A stretch of DNA of 40,644 nucleotides from Bacillota bacterium (lineage in GTDB: Bacteria; Bacillota; SHA-98; UBA4971). This document shows, piece by piece, positions 1 through 40,644 of the stretch. Made by a program: the position numbers and the translations under genes. Positions within the stretch are counted from its first letter, which is position 1. The number at the start of each line of letters is the position of its first letter. Under the pieces are notes generated by a model, which did not search any database, was not told the DNA's origin, and worked only from the letters and a program-made list of their open reading frames with translations. The stretch is taken from contig JASEJE010000027.1 of NCBI GenBank assembly GCA_030024085.1, positions 1-40,644 of the forward strand, in the 5' to 3' direction.

Positions 1-54
1 AGGGCAGTACCGGCAACCCTGGAAAAGTGGCGGTGATTTCTGAACCCACACTTA
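1..54 (+). repeat. Family B palindromic element, right-hand part (cut by window edge)
   Basis: The segment holds the internal arm ACCGGCAACCCTGG followed by the family B terminus AGTGGCGGTGATTTCTGAAC...ACACTTA. The same terminus recurs at 8640-8675, 23925-23950 (reverse), 36205-36236 and 36705-36734. The element appears to end at a TA dinucleotide (53-54). The left half lies outside the window. No coding potential is seen here. Confidence 0.65.
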
Positions 55-2781: not shown

Positions 2782-5050
<2,269 letters not shown>

Positions 5051-8639: not shown

Positions 8640-8675
8640 AAGGGAAAGTGGCGTCGATCTCTGAACCCGTACTTG
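8640..8675 (+). repeat. Family B element terminus (solo end)
   Basis: The stretch GGGAAAGTGGCGTCGATCTCTG...GTACTT matches the family B terminus found at 22-54 and 36205-36236. No internal arm or second end is visible, so this is a remnant. It sits directly after the gatB stop (8632-8634). Confidence 0.55.
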
Positions 8676-8696
8676 GGAAAGGTGGAAGGCGGGGAC

Positions 8697-9659
8697 GTGA
8701 CACCTGACATCCGTGAGCGTTCGGGCCGCGGCAGATTCTGGGCAGACCCGGTCCATCGGCAGTGGATCGCCGATGGATCTCTCGTTATGACGACCCTCAT
8801 CTGGGGCGCGACCTTCGTCGTGGTGAAGGATATCGTGGCGAGGGTCGACGCCGTCGCCCTCGTGGCCGTGCGCTTTCTCATGGCGGCGGTGGTCATGGTA
8901 GTGGCGGTTGCGCCGAGGCTCAGGCGCATGACGCCCAGGCTCGCTGGAGCGGGCGCCTTGGTTGGGCTTGCGCTGTTCATCGGGTACGCCTTCCAGACCA
9001 TGGGGCTCGAGCACACGAGCGCGTCCAAGGCGGGGTTCATCACAGGGCTCTCGGTGGTGCTCGTGCCGGTCCTGTCAGCCGTCATCCTCAAGAGGCCGCC
9101 GGAGCCTGCCGCCATCGTTGGGGTGGCGTGCGCCACCGTGGGCCTCGCGCTCCTCACGCTTAGGCTGGGCGGGGCACCCCTCTTCGAGATAGGCGACATC
9201 CTCGTGCTCGTCGGCGCCGTGGCCTTCGGTCTTCACATCGTGGCGGTGGGCAGGTTCGCCCCGGTGTTCGACGTCCCGCTGCTCGTGACGGTGCAGCTTG
9301 CCACCGTGTCCATCGCCGCCTTCGTGGTCCTCGGCGTTCGGGTGCTGGGGCTCGGCCACCACGTGGCGATGCCGGTATCGTGGTGTGACCTCGGGGGCAT
9401 CGCGTTCCTCGCGGTCTTCGGGACCACGATGGCGTTCTTCATCCAGAACGTCGCCCAGCGCTTCACCAGCCCCACCCACGTGGCCATCGTGTTTGCGACG
9501 GAGCCCGTATTCGCCGGGGTCTTCGGGTGGCTTCTCCTCGGCGAGCGGCTGACCCCCGCCCAGCAGGTCGGCGCCGCGCTCATCCTCGCGGGCATGCTGG
9601 CATCGGAGGTCGAGTTCCCTTGGAAAGCGCGCAGGGCCGGGCCAGACCCCGGGCGATAG
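8697..9659 (+). CDS. EamA/DMT-superfamily transporter
   Basis: Predicted 320-residue inner-membrane protein with about ten hydrophobic helices arranged as two EamA repeats (roughly 25-155 and 170-310). Signature features are TTLIWGATFVVVKD at the first helix, QTMGLEHTSASKAGFITGLSVVLVP in the first repeat, and FFIQNVAQRFTSPTHVAIVFATEPVFAGVFGW...GERL in the second. DMT-family proteins export amino acids, nucleosides or other metabolites; the substrate cannot be told from sequence. Start GTG 8697 has GGAAGG (8684-8689) 7 bp upstream; TTG 8673 lies inside repeat DNA. No functional link to neighbouring genes is evident. Confidence 0.9.
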   Translation: MTPDIRERSGRGRFWADPVHRQWIADGSLVMTTLIWGATFVVVKDIVARVDAVALVAVRFLMAAVVMVVAVAPRLRRMTPRLAGAGALVGLALFIGYAFQTMGLEHTSASKAGFITGLSVVLVPVLSAVILKRPPEPAAIVGVACATVGLALLTLRLGGAPLFEIGDILVLVGAVAFGLHIVAVGRFAPVFDVPLLVTVQLATVSIAAFVVLGVRVLGLGHHVAMPVSWCDLGGIAFLAVFGTTMAFFIQNVAQRFTSPTHVAIVFATEPVFAGVFGWLLLGERLTPAQQVGAALILAGMLASEVEFPWKARRAGPDPGR

Positions 9660-15938: not shown

Positions 15939-16145
15939 TAAGTATGGCGCCATAAGTTTGTGCCATCTTCGCTGACGGTGCTGGGGTTGCCGGTGCTTGC
16001 ACGACGGGGCGTCGAGAATTTGGCTAGCCCGCGCGCCAAATTCGAACGAGGCGCGCCGCAAGCGCGCCGTCCCCGGAGGGCAACACCGGCAACCCTGAAC
16101 AGGACACCCGCACAAGAGTGGCGCGAACTTGTGGCGATCTACTTA
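15939..16145 (+). repeat. Family A palindromic element, full form (copy A2)
   Basis: Ends TAAGTATGGCGCCATAAGTT (15939-15958) and, on the opposite strand, TAAGTAGATCGCCACAAGTT (16145 back to 16126) agree at 16 of 20 bases. Inside is the perfect 12-bp pair GGGTTGCCGGTG (15984-15995)/CACCGGCAACCC (16084-16095). Inside that are hairpins AATTTGGC/GCCAAATT and GGCGCGC-CGCAA-GCGCGCC. The outer dinucleotides are TA on both sides, as expected for a TA-targeting MITE of the Tc1/IS630 type (inference). The right terminus contains the stop codon of the minus-strand gene 16143-16802. Confidence 0.82.
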
Positions 16146-21418: not shown

Positions 21419-22780
21419 ATGTTCAACGTAATCATTCTTGGCATCGTGAGCCTGCTCACCGACATCAGCACCGAGATGGTCTATCCTTTGCTACCTCTTT
21501 TCCTCACGACCCGACTCGGCGCGAGCCCGGCCGTCATCGGCCTCATCGAGGGCATAGCGGAGAGTCTGGCGAGCCTGTTGAAGGTGTTTTCCGGGTACCT
21601 GGCCGACCTCTTCGGACGGAAGAAGCCCCTCGCCATCCTCGGCTACGGTTCGTCCACCGTGGGCAAGGTGGTCCTCTACGTTGCCGGCTCGTGGCCTGCG
21701 GTTCTCGCGGCCAGGATCATCGACAGGTTCGGCAAGGGCATCCGCACGGCGCCCCGCGACGCCCTGATCGCGGACTCCTCCACCCCTGGGACGCGAGGAC
21801 GCGCCTACGGGCTTCACAGGGCCATGGACACCCTTGGCGCGGCGGCCGGGGTGCTCCTCGCGTACTACTTCATCACTACCTATAAGGGCGACTACTCGCG
21901 CGTGTTCCTGTGGGCCATGGTCCCGGCCTTTCTGGGCGTGGGCGCGCTGTTCTTCGCGCGAGAAACCAGGACGAGGGCAGGGGAGACATGCACCGACGGT
22001 TGCGGCGACGGCGACGCACATGGCGACGTCGCCACCGCCACCACTACCGCTTCCGTTACCACCGCCGCCGCCACCACCACCGCTGCCGATGCCGATGCCA
22101 CTGTCGCTGCCAATATCGGTGCCGGTGCCGGGGCTGCCCCTGATGCGGTGGGCAGTGCTGGTGTCCGGAACGGGACCGGACCCAACACAGGGACCCCAGT
22201 TCGGGTGGCAAGACGCAAGGGGCTGCCGTCCTTTCAGTGGTCGAAGCTGGACCGCCGGCTCCGGGGTTTTCTCATTGTGGTGTTCCTTTTCGCGCTTGGC
22301 AACTCGTCCAACCAGTTCCTCCTTCTGCGCGCCGGGAACCTCGGCTTCGGCCCGGCGGCGGTGCTTCTCGTGTATTTCCTGTATAACATGGTTTACTCGG
22401 TGCTTTCATATCCCGCCGGGCGGCTCTCTGACATGATAGGCCGCAAGACGCTCCTCGTGGCTGGATACGCAATGTACGGCCTGGTTTACCTGGGCTTCGC
22501 CCTTGCGAAAGCATCGTGGCACGTGTTGGTGCTCTTCGCTCTCTATGGGGCATACATCGCGTTCACGGAGGGTATCGAAAAGGCCCTCGTGGCGGACATC
22601 GCGCCGCTGGACCTGAGAGCGACAACCATCGGTCTCCATGCGACGCTGGTCGGCATCGGCCTTTTGCCGGCCTCGCTCCTCGCAGGGCTGCTCTGGAACC
22701 TCTTCGGACCCCAGGCGACGTTCGTGTTCGGGGGTGTGATGGGCCTGCTTGCGGCGGTGGGCATCTGGGCGGTCGTGTAA
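21419..22780 (+). CDS. MFS transporter with expanded central loop
   Basis: 453-residue major facilitator with about 12 helices in two halves. The N-terminal half begins VIILGIVSLLTDISTEMVYPLLPLFL and contains loop motif GYLADLFGRKKPLA; the second half repeats it as GRLSDMIGRKTLLV. The loop between helices 6 and 7 (about 182-265) is an Ala/Thr/Gly/Asp-rich insertion encoded by GCC/ACC-type triplet runs. ATG 21419 follows AAAGGGGGG. It is co-directional with and 21 bp after the ChrB-like gene, suggesting export of a toxic or regulatory small molecule. The substrate is unknown. The TAA stop (22778-22780) is formed at the end of a family A element. Confidence 0.9.
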   Translation: MFNVIILGIVSLLTDISTEMVYPLLPLFLTTRLGASPAVIGLIEGIAESLASLLKVFSGYLADLFGRKKPLAILGYGSSTVGKVVLYVAGSWPAVLAARIIDRFGKGIRTAPRDALIADSSTPGTRGRAYGLHRAMDTLGAAAGVLLAYYFITTYKGDYSRVFLWAMVPAFLGVGALFFARETRTRAGETCTDGCGDGDAHGDVATATTTASVTTAAATTTAADADATVAANIGAGAGAAPDAVGSAGVRNGTGPNTGTPVRVARRKGLPSFQWSKLDRRLRGFLIVVFLFALGNSSNQFLLLRAGNLGFGPAAVLLVYFLYNMVYSVLSYPAGRLSDMIGRKTLLVAGYAMYGLVYLGFALAKASWHVLVLFALYGAYIAFTEGIEKALVADIAPLDLRATTIGLHATLVGIGLLPASLLAGLLWNLFGPQATFVFGGVMGLLAAVGIWAVV

Positions 22781-22841
22781 GTAGATCGCCACAAATTCGC
22801 GCTGCTTTTCGGCGCGCAGGTCCTCGCCAGAGTTGCCGGTG
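22778..22841 (-). repeat. Family A element, end fragment (copy A3)
   Basis: TAAGTAGATCGCCACAAATT followed by CGCGCTGCTTTTCGG...CAGAGTTGCCGGTG matches the reverse complement of the right part of the 15939-16145 element. The internal arm TTGCCGGTG is reached, then similarity stops, so this copy is truncated. The first TAA is the stop of the MFS gene. The remainder to 23050 (about 210 bp) shows no gene. Confidence 0.7.
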
Positions 22842-23150: not shown

Positions 23151-23927
23151 CTGGACGCTGTAAATGCCCTGGTCGCCCTGGGCTTCACGGAATACGAGGC
23201 AAAGACGTATACTGCCTTGCTACGGACCAGCCCTGCCACAGGGTACCAGATAAGCAAAGAGGCCGGGATCCCGAGGTCCATGGTGTACGAGGCCCTCGGC
23301 CGGCTGGTCAACCGGGGGGCCGTTCTCACGCTGCCTCAGGGCGACACCACCCGTTACGCGCCGGTGCCCGTGAGCGCTCTCCTTGACGGCATGCGTCACA
23401 TCTACGAGAACGCTATCGACGCTGCGCACGAGAGCCTGTCCCGTTACGAGGCGCTCGTTCCCCTGGAGCAGGCGTGGAACCTCGAGGGGAGGGACGCTAT
23501 ACTCGGCCGCGCCAGGGACATGATAGCAAATGCCCGGGATGAGCTGCTGCTGGCCGCAAGCGACCGGACTCTCCTGGATCTGGTGCCCCTGCTCCGCGCG
23601 GCGCACGAGAGGGGCGTTCGGGTGCGGGTGCTCGTCTCCGGTGACGCTGAGCTCGACTTCGGCCAGACCGTGCGGCACCCGCAGGCTGAGAGCGCGTTCC
23701 AGCAACTCGGCCAGAACATAGTCGTGGTCGCTGACGGCTCCCATGCGCTCGTGGGTGGGACGGGCGCCGACGATACGGCGGTCTGGACCGGCAACCGCCA
23801 CATCGTATTCATTGCCCGGCAGTACATCTGGCAGGAGATGTTTACCCAGCGGGTGTCCGAGAGGCTGGGGAAAGAACTATGGCCGGTGCTGAGCCCGGAA
23901 GAGCACAAGGCCATCTTCGGAGACTGA
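23151..23927 (+). CDS. TrmB-family transcriptional regulator, probable CTG start
   Basis: 258-residue regulator: N-terminal winged helix (LVALGFTEYEAKTYTALLRTSPATGYQISKEAGIPRSMVYEALGRLVNRGAV), coiled linker (about 70-100), and a C-terminal PLD-like TrmB domain (RDAILGRARDMIANARDELLLAAS, about 112-255). Homology runs unbroken to 23151, directly after an in-frame TGA (23148-23150), and no ATG, GTG or TTG occurs in frame before 23217. TTG 23217 would delete the first HTH helix. CTG 23151 with AAGGGG (23136-23141) 9 bp upstream is therefore the likely start; a frameshift or sequencing error is the alternative. It may control the adjacent P-type ATPase or itself. The TGA stop lies in a family B element end. 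Confidence 0.8.
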   Translation: MDAVNALVALGFTEYEAKTYTALLRTSPATGYQISKEAGIPRSMVYEALGRLVNRGAVLTLPQGDTTRYAPVPVSALLDGMRHIYENAIDAAHESLSRYEALVPLEQAWNLEGRDAILGRARDMIANARDELLLAASDRTLLDLVPLLRAAHERGVRVRVLVSGDAELDFGQTVRHPQAESAFQQLGQNIVVVADGSHALVGGTGADDTAVWTGNRHIVFIARQYIWQEMFTQRVSERLGKELWPVLSPEEHKAIFGD

Positions 23928-24027
23928 GTGAGGGTTCGTCGATTCCTCCCCGTTTTCCGGAGGCTCCCGGGTTGCCGGTGTCGCACCCGAGGACGGCGCC
24001 CCAAGCGGGGCGCGCTTCGCCAGAATA
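23925..24027 (-). repeat. Family B palindromic element, diverged (copy B2)
   Basis: It begins TGAGTGAGGGTTCGTCGATT, comparable to the reverse complement of the terminus at 22-54 (TAAGTGTGGGTTCAGAAATC). It continues through TTTTCC and the internal arm GGGTTGCCGGTG to a core hairpin GCGCCCC-AAGC-GGGGCGC (7-bp stem). The far end is not recognisable, so its right limit is uncertain. It lies between the TrmB-type gene and the P-type ATPase gene. Confidence 0.6.
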
Positions 24028-32415: not shown

Positions 32416-33159
32416 ATGGGTCTCAAGGACTTTCTAGGCGTTCCGAGACTCGAGACGGCAAAGCGGGTGCTGGCCGTCCAGCCTCATCCCGACGACAACG
32501 AGATCGGCGCGGGCGGCACCCTGGCGTGGCTTGCCAGCCTCGGCGTCGAGGTCGTCTACCTCACCGTGACCGACGGGTGCATAGGCACACAGGACCCATC
32601 GACGAGCCCGGAGAAACTGGCGGAGATCCGGCGGGGTGAAGCAGAGCGCTCGGCCCGGCACCTTGGAGTGTCCCGGCTTCTGTGGCTCGGGTATCACGAC
32701 GGTGACGTCCCTGAAGAGCGTGAGCTCACCGCAAGGATCATGGGCATCGTGCGAACCGTGAAGCCCGATGCCGTCCTCGTTCCCGACCCGTGGCTCCCGT
32801 ACGAGGCCCACAGGGACCACCGCCTGACAGGCCTCGCCACGGCAGGCGCGTGCATACTGGCGGGTTTCCCCCACGCGAGCTCGGAGCCGGATGCGCCTCC
32901 ACACGCTGTCCCGTCCGTCGGGTTTTACTGCACCACGAGGCCGAACACCTGGATCAACGTGGACAGAACCTGGGGCAAGAAGATGGAGGCCGTAAGGATG
33001 CATGCGAGCCAGTTCCCAGAGGGCTGGACGATGATCTCCATGTACCTGGACATGAAGGCGCGGGAACTTGCGAAGGGCCGGGGCTTTGCGCGGGCTGAGG
33101 CCCTGAAGGTGCTCCCCACGCTGCTTCTCCACTTCAACGTGGACACGGAGGGATACTGA
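32416..33159 (+). CDS. PIG-L (LmbE) family zinc deacetylase
   Basis: 247-residue zinc-dependent N-deacetylase. Motifs are HPDDNE (H24, D26, D27) near the start and AHRDHR (about 131-136) for metal binding. The family removes acetyl groups from N-acetylglucosamine-containing compounds, including GlcNAc-malate (bacillithiol), GlcNAc-inositol and diacetylchitobiose. ATG 32416 follows a GGGGGTGG-like site. The stop TGA overlaps the ATG of the GH4 gene (TGATG), implying tight coupling, so the substrate may be an acetylated glycoside later cut by GH4 (inference). The exact substrate cannot be fixed. Confidence 0.92.
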   Translation: MGLKDFLGVPRLETAKRVLAVQPHPDDNEIGAGGTLAWLASLGVEVVYLTVTDGCIGTQDPSTSPEKLAEIRRGEAERSARHLGVSRLLWLGYHDGDVPEERELTARIMGIVRTVKPDAVLVPDPWLPYEAHRDHRLTGLATAGACILAGFPHASSEPDAPPHAVPSVGFYCTTRPNTWINVDRTWGKKMEAVRMHASQFPEGWTMISMYLDMKARELAKGRGFARAEALKVLPTLLLHFNVDTEGY

Positions 33160-34789: not shown

Positions 34790-34795
34790 GGCCTT

Positions 34796-35300
34796 CTAAT
34801 TCTACTCTGTTACGTGTGGATTTCCTGGTACTGCCGTCGCTTGAGCCGACAGCTGACGTACGTCACGGGTTTTTCGTTAAGCGTTCCCTACGTCATCAGT
34901 GAGGGCTGTCGAGTGACGTACATCACTGGTCCCGGCCTTACCCGTTCCCTCCGTCACACATGCGAGGGGATGGATGACGTACGTCACTCGTCAGGCTCTT
35001 CCCGTTCCGTACCTCACGCATCTGAAGCCAAACGGTGACGTGCGTCATCGTTCCCGCCTTACCCGTTCCCTGCGTCACGGGTTCTCCACCAAGCGTTCCA
35101 TACGTCACTCGTCGGAGCGGCACCAGTGACGTACGTCACTGGTGCCTCCTGAGCCGTTCCCTACGTCATCATTGGGAACGATCGACTGATGTACATCACT
35201 GGTCCGGGCATTACGCGTTCTCTGCGTCACGCGTCGAATCCAACTGCTGACGCATATCACTACTCCCGCCTTACCCGTTCCGTACATCACGGGTGCTCCA
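34796..35300. repeat. Phased ACGTCA repeat array (15 motifs, 30-31 bp apart)
   Basis: ACGTCA or a one- or two-base variant occurs at 34860, 34890, 34920, 34951, 34981, 35011, 35042, 35072, 35102, 35133, 35163, 35193, 35224, 35254 and 35284, each 30 or 31 bp from the last. Alternate motifs sit in a palindrome TGACGTACGTCA, giving a 60-61-bp higher-order unit with a conserved CCCGCCTTACCCGTTCCC filler. One unit has an extra half (35036 to 35127). The array lies between convergent genes. It is not CRISPR-like because the fillers are similar to each other. Confidence 0.9.
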
Positions 35301-36117: not shown

Positions 36118-36236
36118 GAGTCACCGGTGCCGGGCCTGGTCAGTGCGCCTCGTCAGGGGCGCTGAGTTAACTGCACGACACCGGCGACTCCTGTAGAACT
36201 GGCTGGAAGTGGCGGTCATCTCCGGGTTCCCACTCA
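36118..36236 (+). repeat. Family B palindromic element (copy B3)
   Basis: Internal arms GAGTCACCGGTG (36118-36129) and CACCGGCGACTC (36179-36190) pair at 11 of 12 positions. They correspond to GGGTTGCCGGTG/CACCGGCAACCC of family A with matched changes on both sides. The right terminus ...AGTGGCGGTCATCTC...CCACTCA ends at the stop codon of the minus-strand DUF1657 gene. The left limit is uncertain. The rest of 35953-36117 shows no gene. Confidence 0.65.
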
Positions 36237-36542: not shown

Positions 36543-36734
36543 TGAGCGTGGGCTCATGAAGCCGTACCGGTCTGGTCGAGACCGCCGGGGTGTGGTGCCT
36601 GCCCGACGGGGCGCCTCCGATTCGGCTGGCCTCAAGCGCCAAATCCAACGAGGCGTGCCGTGAGCGCGCCGTCCCCGGCGTGCAGCACCGCGAGCCTGCT
36701 GGGAGAATGGCGGCAACCTCTGAGCCCACATTCT
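36543..36734 (+). repeat. Family B palindromic element with both ends (copy B4)
   Basis: Terminal arms GTGGGCTCA (36548-36556) and TGAGCCCAC (36721-36729) are perfect complements. The core from about 36603 to 36700 aligns with 16002-16097 of the family A element (GACGGGGCG...CGCCAAAT.C.AACGAGGCGYGCCG...GCGCGCCGTCCCCGG). This copy therefore joins B-type ends to an A-type core. It lies in the divergent gap between DUF1657 and the DUF2148 gene. The rest of that 371-bp gap shows no gene. Confidence 0.7.
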
Positions 36735-40591: not shown

Positions 40592-40644
40592 TAGGTAGAT
40601 CGCCACAAGTTCGCGCTACTTTTCAGCGGGTGAGTCCTGTCCAG
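40592..40644 (-). repeat. Family A element end (copy A4, cut by window edge)
   Basis: TAGGTAGATCGCCACAAGTTCGCGCTACTTTTCAGCGGGTG...CCTGTCCAG matches the reverse complement of 16091-16145. The copy continues beyond the window. It lies just upstream of the MoxR-like fragment. Confidence 0.7.

Follow-up and report, generated by a model that had tools for sequence, protein, structure and literature searches.

Stop codons supplied by CTAG-targeting MITEs in a Bacillota genome

Results

Element ends at four neighbouring stop codons

The window analysed here, 40,644 nucleotides long, is the whole of contig C19 of a GC-rich 3.11-Mb genome that is 96% complete. Four of its genes, coding for an MFS transporter, a secreted protein without a match in a Pfam search, a TrmB-type regulator and a DUF1657 protein, stop within the terminus of a repeated element (Table 1). 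The first-pass annotation of this DNA had read these four stops as the first three bases of element ends; its stop coordinates are correct and the words that follow them are those of element ends, three of them clear and the fourth, at the DUF1657 gene, decayed. What it had called an A terminus at 16145 and 22778 is in both places a certain A1 end. Its B terminus, TGAGTG, is an element end in both places too, but the name pooled two different end types, B4 at 23925 and a B1-like end at 36236. TGAGTG has arisen by decay from TAAGTG, and the same end types elsewhere in the genome also drift (TGA, CAA, TAG). The end at 36236 scored above all 300 shuffles in a global alignment to the B1 consensus, and the DUF1657 stop of the sister species G002 carries an unmistakable B4 end (TAAGTGAGGGTGCGTTAGTTC). 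As for the shared polarity of gene and element, it is true but trivial, given that reading inwards from a stop necessarily follows the direction of the gene.

Table 1. Genes ending in element termini, and elements of the same family, in the window.
Feature	Position	Strand	Evidence or remark
B1 end truncated by contig start	16..54	-	B1 E 6e-16
Shorter decayed A2/A1 MITE, 3' of UvrD/PcrA-type gene, away from stop	2782..2921	+	A2 E 6e-8
Solo B1 end, closely upstream of gene 8682-9659, away from stop	8642..8675	-	B1 E 1e-9
Complete A1/A2 MITE, 207 bp	15939..16145	-	A1 E 4e-11, A2 E 6e-14
Secreted-protein stop TAA from A1 end	16143..16145	-	G002: AAC-TAG (CTAG), without element
Secreted-protein gene	16880/16802-16143	-	Ends ..AAC TAA GTAGATCGCC
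MFS gene	21419-22780	+	PF07690; ends ..GTG TAA GTAGATCGCC
MFS stop TAA, supplied by element end	22778..22780	+	
Left half of A-type MITE with its A1 end; decayed right half	22778..22841	+	A1 profile E 8e-14
TrmB-type regulator gene	23217-23927	+	PF01978; ends ..GAC TGA GTGAGGGTTC
B4 end and core of B3/B4-type MITE, right end lost	23925..24026	+	B4 profile E 5e-5
B1-like end, degenerate, with the DUF1657 stop TGA as its first three bases	36187..36236	-	B1 consensus alignment; local profile E 0.17
DUF1657 gene	36515-36234	-	PF07870; ends ..CAC TGA GTGGGAACCC
Core of decayed MITE	36594..36690	-	79.6% to 16145 core; weak B2-like (36546) and B1-like (36730) ends
A1 end truncated by contig end	40592..40644	+	A1 E 9e-15

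The 207-bp copy is laid out as an A1 end (16145-16109), a core (16096-15984) and an A2 end (15939-15983), with TA duplicated on both sides, and has at least 39 more near full-length relatives in the genome (about 40 among those scored). The element at 22778 is 78% identical to its left half. Regarding the element at 23925, its first three bases, TGA (a decayed TAA), are the TrmB stop, and 43 places in the genome are similar to it. The decayed copy at 2782..2921 has an A1-like right end (CTAAGCAGATCG). MITE ends also lie at the starts and ends of contigs, in the window (1-54 and 40592-40644) and in many others, where the assembly breaks in repeats. The window further contains an array of palindromic repeats of the TGACGTACGTCAC type (34854-35291, spacing 30 to 121) and a related pair of 98-bp copies at 84-181 and 34790-34887.

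An abundant family of non-coding elements

From 834 kb of genome stretches we modelled six end types (A1, A2, B1, B2, B3 and B4). They pair specifically, A1 with A2, B1 with B2 and B3 with B4, as imperfect terminal inverted repeats that have TAAGT in common, and the consensus of each begins C-TAAGT. Between them lies a common core that contains inner hairpins, GGGTTGCCGGTG..CACCGGCAACCC. The sample holds 110 elements, 72 of them paired and most of these 180-225 bp long; being 27% of the genome, it suggests a total of about 400. Genome-wide, A1 ends with at most three mismatches number 175, against 1 for a reversed control pattern, and a second family is common too. Short, non-coding, dispersed in many copies and with defined ends, these elements qualify as MITEs (non-autonomous transposons), very probably of the IS630/Tc1-mariner type. 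Of 61 genomes, 14 carry them; these belong to the genus, to its family and to a second family of the class. The stretch C1:1-400000 of genome G015 is almost devoid of them.

The 15939-16145 copy folds as a whole with -107.5 kcal/mol (z -6.2). An Rfam search of the elements gave no match at E<=1, and compensatory changes in the core were found in only 2 of 24 pairs of an imperfect alignment, so that we claim no conserved RNA.

Other readings of the repeats were considered. REP/REPIN sequences consist of a short palindrome headed by GTAG, are moved by a Y1 transposase (RAYT) and leave no target duplication; the TA duplication and the long inverted repeats speak against them here. On contig 22, two A1 ends that face inward 5 kb apart might be read as a composite transposon; they enclose metabolic genes (fatty-acid type), and that reading was rejected.

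Besides, a repeat of ~95-110 bp with ends GAGRCTGTTGAT...ATCAACRGYCTC sits inside MITE ends of this genome, at C33 ~94204-94299, C44 ~104096-104191 and ~58971, and C62 ~32433-32527, with apparent 6-bp direct repeats (CGCCAT, GTGCAG, GTTCAG). It is a nested MITE with an apparent preference for the host element. A sub-threshold match to the c-di-GMP-II riboswitch (44 bits, E 6e-7) was also seen near a MITE in the related genome G013 (L136, 2015-2097).

The coincidence with stop codons is genome-wide

Using a Markov gene caller written for this analysis, we called 664 genes in the 834 kb and recorded the offset of each element end to the stop codon. Thirty of 182 ends lie at an offset of exactly 0, and any other offset within 60 nt is taken at most three times. 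A count that is independent of the profiles agrees: 12 of 97 TAA stops read TAAGTA, all 12 of them element ends, and GTA is the commonest triplet after TAA stops. The 30 stops at element ends are TAA in 15 cases, TAG in 9 and TGA in 6, and either end of an element can occupy them (A1 ten times, A2 ten times and the B types ten times). The same spike was found in genome G001 (3 ends) and in the same-genus relative G003 (8 ends), in all cases with C before the stop. The coincidence seen in the window is therefore real and confirmed genome-wide. At C33:15841-16022 one element supplies, with its two ends, the stops of two convergent genes, an arrangement that would be expected had these stops overlapped in one CTAG; with its mixed end types (B1/B3), this element is possibly a composite.

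Protein length is kept at the occupied stops

One could argue that elements land randomly near gene ends and that their in-frame TAA truncates the protein, the stop being a by-product of C-terminal loss. A1 ends do provide stops in two frames, and in three genes the end lies 4 nt before the stop, with the internal TAG of TAAGTAG terminating translation; some insertions did strike coding ends. Against this stand the orthologues of sister species G002, which we located with a chimeric query of 29 C-termini and which, with the MFS and secreted-protein loci, gave 30 comparisons. In 25 of the 30 the protein ends at the identical codon (binomial P 2e-8 against 1/3), in 21 of these without an element, and the vacant stops are mostly TAG (14 of 21, vs 30% of stops overall). 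Only in the remaining five does the length differ, by -5 to +17 residues. Truncation is thus contradicted, and we give it next to no credence; orthologues that continue past these stops, the finding that would have spoken against neutral insertion, are not the rule.

At the loci of the window, the TrmB orthologue of G002 ends at the same codon, there TAG, and the MFS orthologues of G001-G004, G013 and G015 also keep the end codon. The MFS stop is preceded by G instead of C; most orthologues have GTC, and GTC to GTG is possibly a later synonymous change.

When the flanks of our elements are joined by a single TA, C-TA-G, five of them can be aligned across the junction with empty sites, showing that TA was duplicated. 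For pyruvate kinase the joined flanks read ..AGGATC-TA-GAGGAAAC, compared with ..AGGATCTAGAGGAAAC in G002, or in a longer form CACAGGATC-TA-GAGGAAACTTC compared with CACAGGATCTAGAGGAAACTTC. Unchanged orthologue lengths and reconstructed empty sites support the earlier proposal that TAA is rebuilt when an element whose first base is A enters the TA of a stop, and that such an insertion is neutral. Two elements are common to both genomes at the same stop. At two other stops, those of a 75-aa gene (C33:15841) and of the DUF1657 gene, the end types differ between the two species, so stops can be struck or re-struck independently. In a separate observation, the MFS stop of G001 (L146) holds a decayed A2-like end (TAGGTGCGGCGTCATGGGTTTTCACC) where an A1 end is found here, one stop having been used repeatedly.

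CTAG targeting accounts for most or all of the excess

The flanks of the paired elements are C...G in 61 of 72, and C precedes the stop in 27 of 29 stop-located elements vs 23 of 185 vacant TAG stops (Fisher P 2e-18). This sharpens the earlier inference, for the target is CTAG and C-preceded TAG stops are the ones used. We also considered that the C before TAAGT belongs to the element and that the stop is recognised otherwise, for example through transcription or translation termination. Although nearly every end has C before it, whether at a stop or not, the base in front of the stop comes from the gene: the same C is present at orthologous empty sites, and the one case preceded by T has T in both species. 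We regard this alternative as very improbable and retain CTAG as the target.

The comparison of stops with other sites that the first-pass annotation had proposed was run on the 834-kb sample and revealed an excess at stops, whose size depends on the expectation. Of the 110 elements 29 are at stops, where random intergenic placement predicts 0.5 (P 3e-42), equal use of all intergenic and stop TAs 7.8, and equal use of all intergenic and stop CTAGs 18.2 (P=0.006). By occupancy, 27 of 50 CTAGs at stops (54%) are taken in this genome and 72 of 188 other intergenic ones (38%; P=0.053); 152 CTAGs in coding sequence are vacant. G001 and G003 show no stop excess over the CTAG expectation, and in the three species pooled the occupancy is 38 of 104 (37%) at stops and 121 of 420 (29%) elsewhere (P=0.15). 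CTAG targeting, together with removal of coding insertions, accounts for most or all of the stop excess, with a possible residual preference for stop CTAGs in this genome.

That residue bears on a further explanation, also raised in the first-pass annotation, by which elements are kept at stops as hairpin 3'-end structures (terminators or mRNA stabilisers). The very stable fold of the 207-bp copy and the slightly higher occupancy of stop CTAGs in this genome would fit such a role, whereas the pooled data do not show a difference. Moreover, the shares of tandem, convergent and divergent gaps are alike for elements away from stops and for vacant CTAGs (P=0.32). Stop-located A elements resemble other A elements in fold energy (P=0.41), in completeness (P=0.50) and in their identity to the consensus (0.903 vs 0.885, P=0.50). 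The ends have no U-tract, and the secreted-protein locus keeps, downstream of the element, the GGGAAGG/CCTTCCC terminator-like hairpin of the sister species. Since the tests of occupancy, gap orientation, conservation and folding lend it no support, selection for 3'-end structure appears improbable, and target choice remains our explanation.

A candidate parent among IS630-family elements

PMC2170065 cites a paper by Tenzen and Ohtsubo (1991) whose title gives the TA in 5'-CTAG-3' as the preferred site of IS630, and insertion of the IS630 type duplicates TA (PMC2170065). A search of our 96% complete genome for an IS630 transposase (PF13358, NF033545) gave none over the cut-off, and the parent element may have been lost from it. 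In G015, a genome of the same class, we found an IS630-family transposase (NF033545, 254 bits) that contains one in-frame TGA and lies in an element of 1141 bp (L193 883-2024), flanked as C-TAAGTTA...TAACTTA-G at a CTAG target; the element ends read C-TAAGTTAGTGTCCAATTAAATTTGCCACTTTGCCAGG and C-TAAGTTAATGCAC... In G014, also of this class, a left end C-TAAGTAAGAGTTCTTTTACATTTGCCACTTTACCAGG precedes the transposase.

A terminus-profile search at the DDE_3 loci of relatives returned nothing; the common C-TAAGT ends came from a looser search. The left ends from G015 and G014 match the MITE B1 end at 24 of 38 positions, a value that none of 799,926 background positions reaches, and between the G014 end and a G015 MITE end 26 of 38 agree, with one of 799,926 background positions as good. 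When the five TAAGT bases are left out, the similarity has an uncorrected P of about 1e-4 to 1e-5 for the best of some 24 comparisons. The IS630 copies and the MITE ends are similar, not identical. Judged by these end sequences, an IS630-family IS in a same-class genome is the likely parent, a case that is good if not conclusive.

Discussion

We have demonstrated the CTAG target, the TA duplication and the unchanged protein length, with exact coincidence of element ends and stops in three species. The reading that very probably holds is that MITEs of IS630/Tc1-mariner type insert in CTAG and regenerate the stop codon, keeping the length of the protein. Insertion into the TA of the palindrome, with TA duplicated, would give C-TA-AGT...ACT-TA-G, so that NNC-TAG becomes NNC-TAA-GT.. 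and translation would stop at the same residue. As both ends of every subfamily have A directly after TA, either orientation would rebuild TAA, and the new stop could later drift among TAA, TAG and TGA, leading to the TGAGTG forms. The concentration of CTAG between genes and at C-preceded TAG stops, combined with the purging of hits in coding sequence, would leave many surviving copies exactly in stops. The mobilising enzyme would be an IS630-family transposase, now missing here and still present in same-class genomes with similar ends.

These results provide a simple, testable rule for harmless insertion at stops: a CTAG target and an end starting with A convert C-TAG into C-TAA. With half of the C-TAG stops taken in the sampled part of the genome, stop-codon usage and 3' untranslated regions are visibly reshaped. 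In annotation, IS630-type MITEs should be kept in mind as an origin of TAA stops, and these stops offer clean pairs of empty and occupied sites for measuring transposition. One could go further and ask if the ends are tuned to stops, as A follows the duplicated TA at both ends in every subfamily of the genus and in those seen in another family of the class. We find this doubtful; were it so, stop codons would have evolved into a safe harbour for the elements, which in turn would be a force mutating TAG stops to TAA genome-wide.

Our elements are like IS630 and ISY100 (IS630-Tc1-mariner family) in duplicating a TA target and, as for IS630, in preferring CTAG, and an IS630-family copy with similar C-TAAGT ends occurs in genomes of the same class; unlike them they encode nothing, and no transposase over the cut-off was found in this genome. 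MITEPsy1 of Pseudomonas syringae also inserts at CTAG (or YTAA), but it is IS5-like and duplicates the whole 4-bp site instead of TA (PMC3189936). TA-duplicating IS630 MITEs are already known from RUP of Streptococcus pneumoniae, the MITE of IS630-Spn1, as the available text of PMC2229807 and PMC3049150 describes. RUP is likewise a small, hairpin-forming, non-autonomous element with ~100 copies, a TA target and a presumed IS630 transposase acting in trans; it differs in sequence, in its size of 107 bp and in a reported preference for IS elements, and the same text mentions no coincidence with stop codons.

Within the sources available in part to a search of journals other than subscription titles, we found no account of CTAG targeting as the cause of stop-codon insertion and no report of half of the C-TAG stops being occupied. 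That MITE ends supply stops is known from QMITE1 and QMITE2 of Coxiella burnetii (PMC5896051), which provide 2 bp of the ubiB stop and 3 bp of that of CBU_2020. The accessible portion of that paper mentions no CTAG target as an explanation. Like our elements, the QMITEs are landing sites for another element; they differ in that the cases are few and that other Coxiella genes gain C-terminal residues, whereas here the length of the protein is unchanged.
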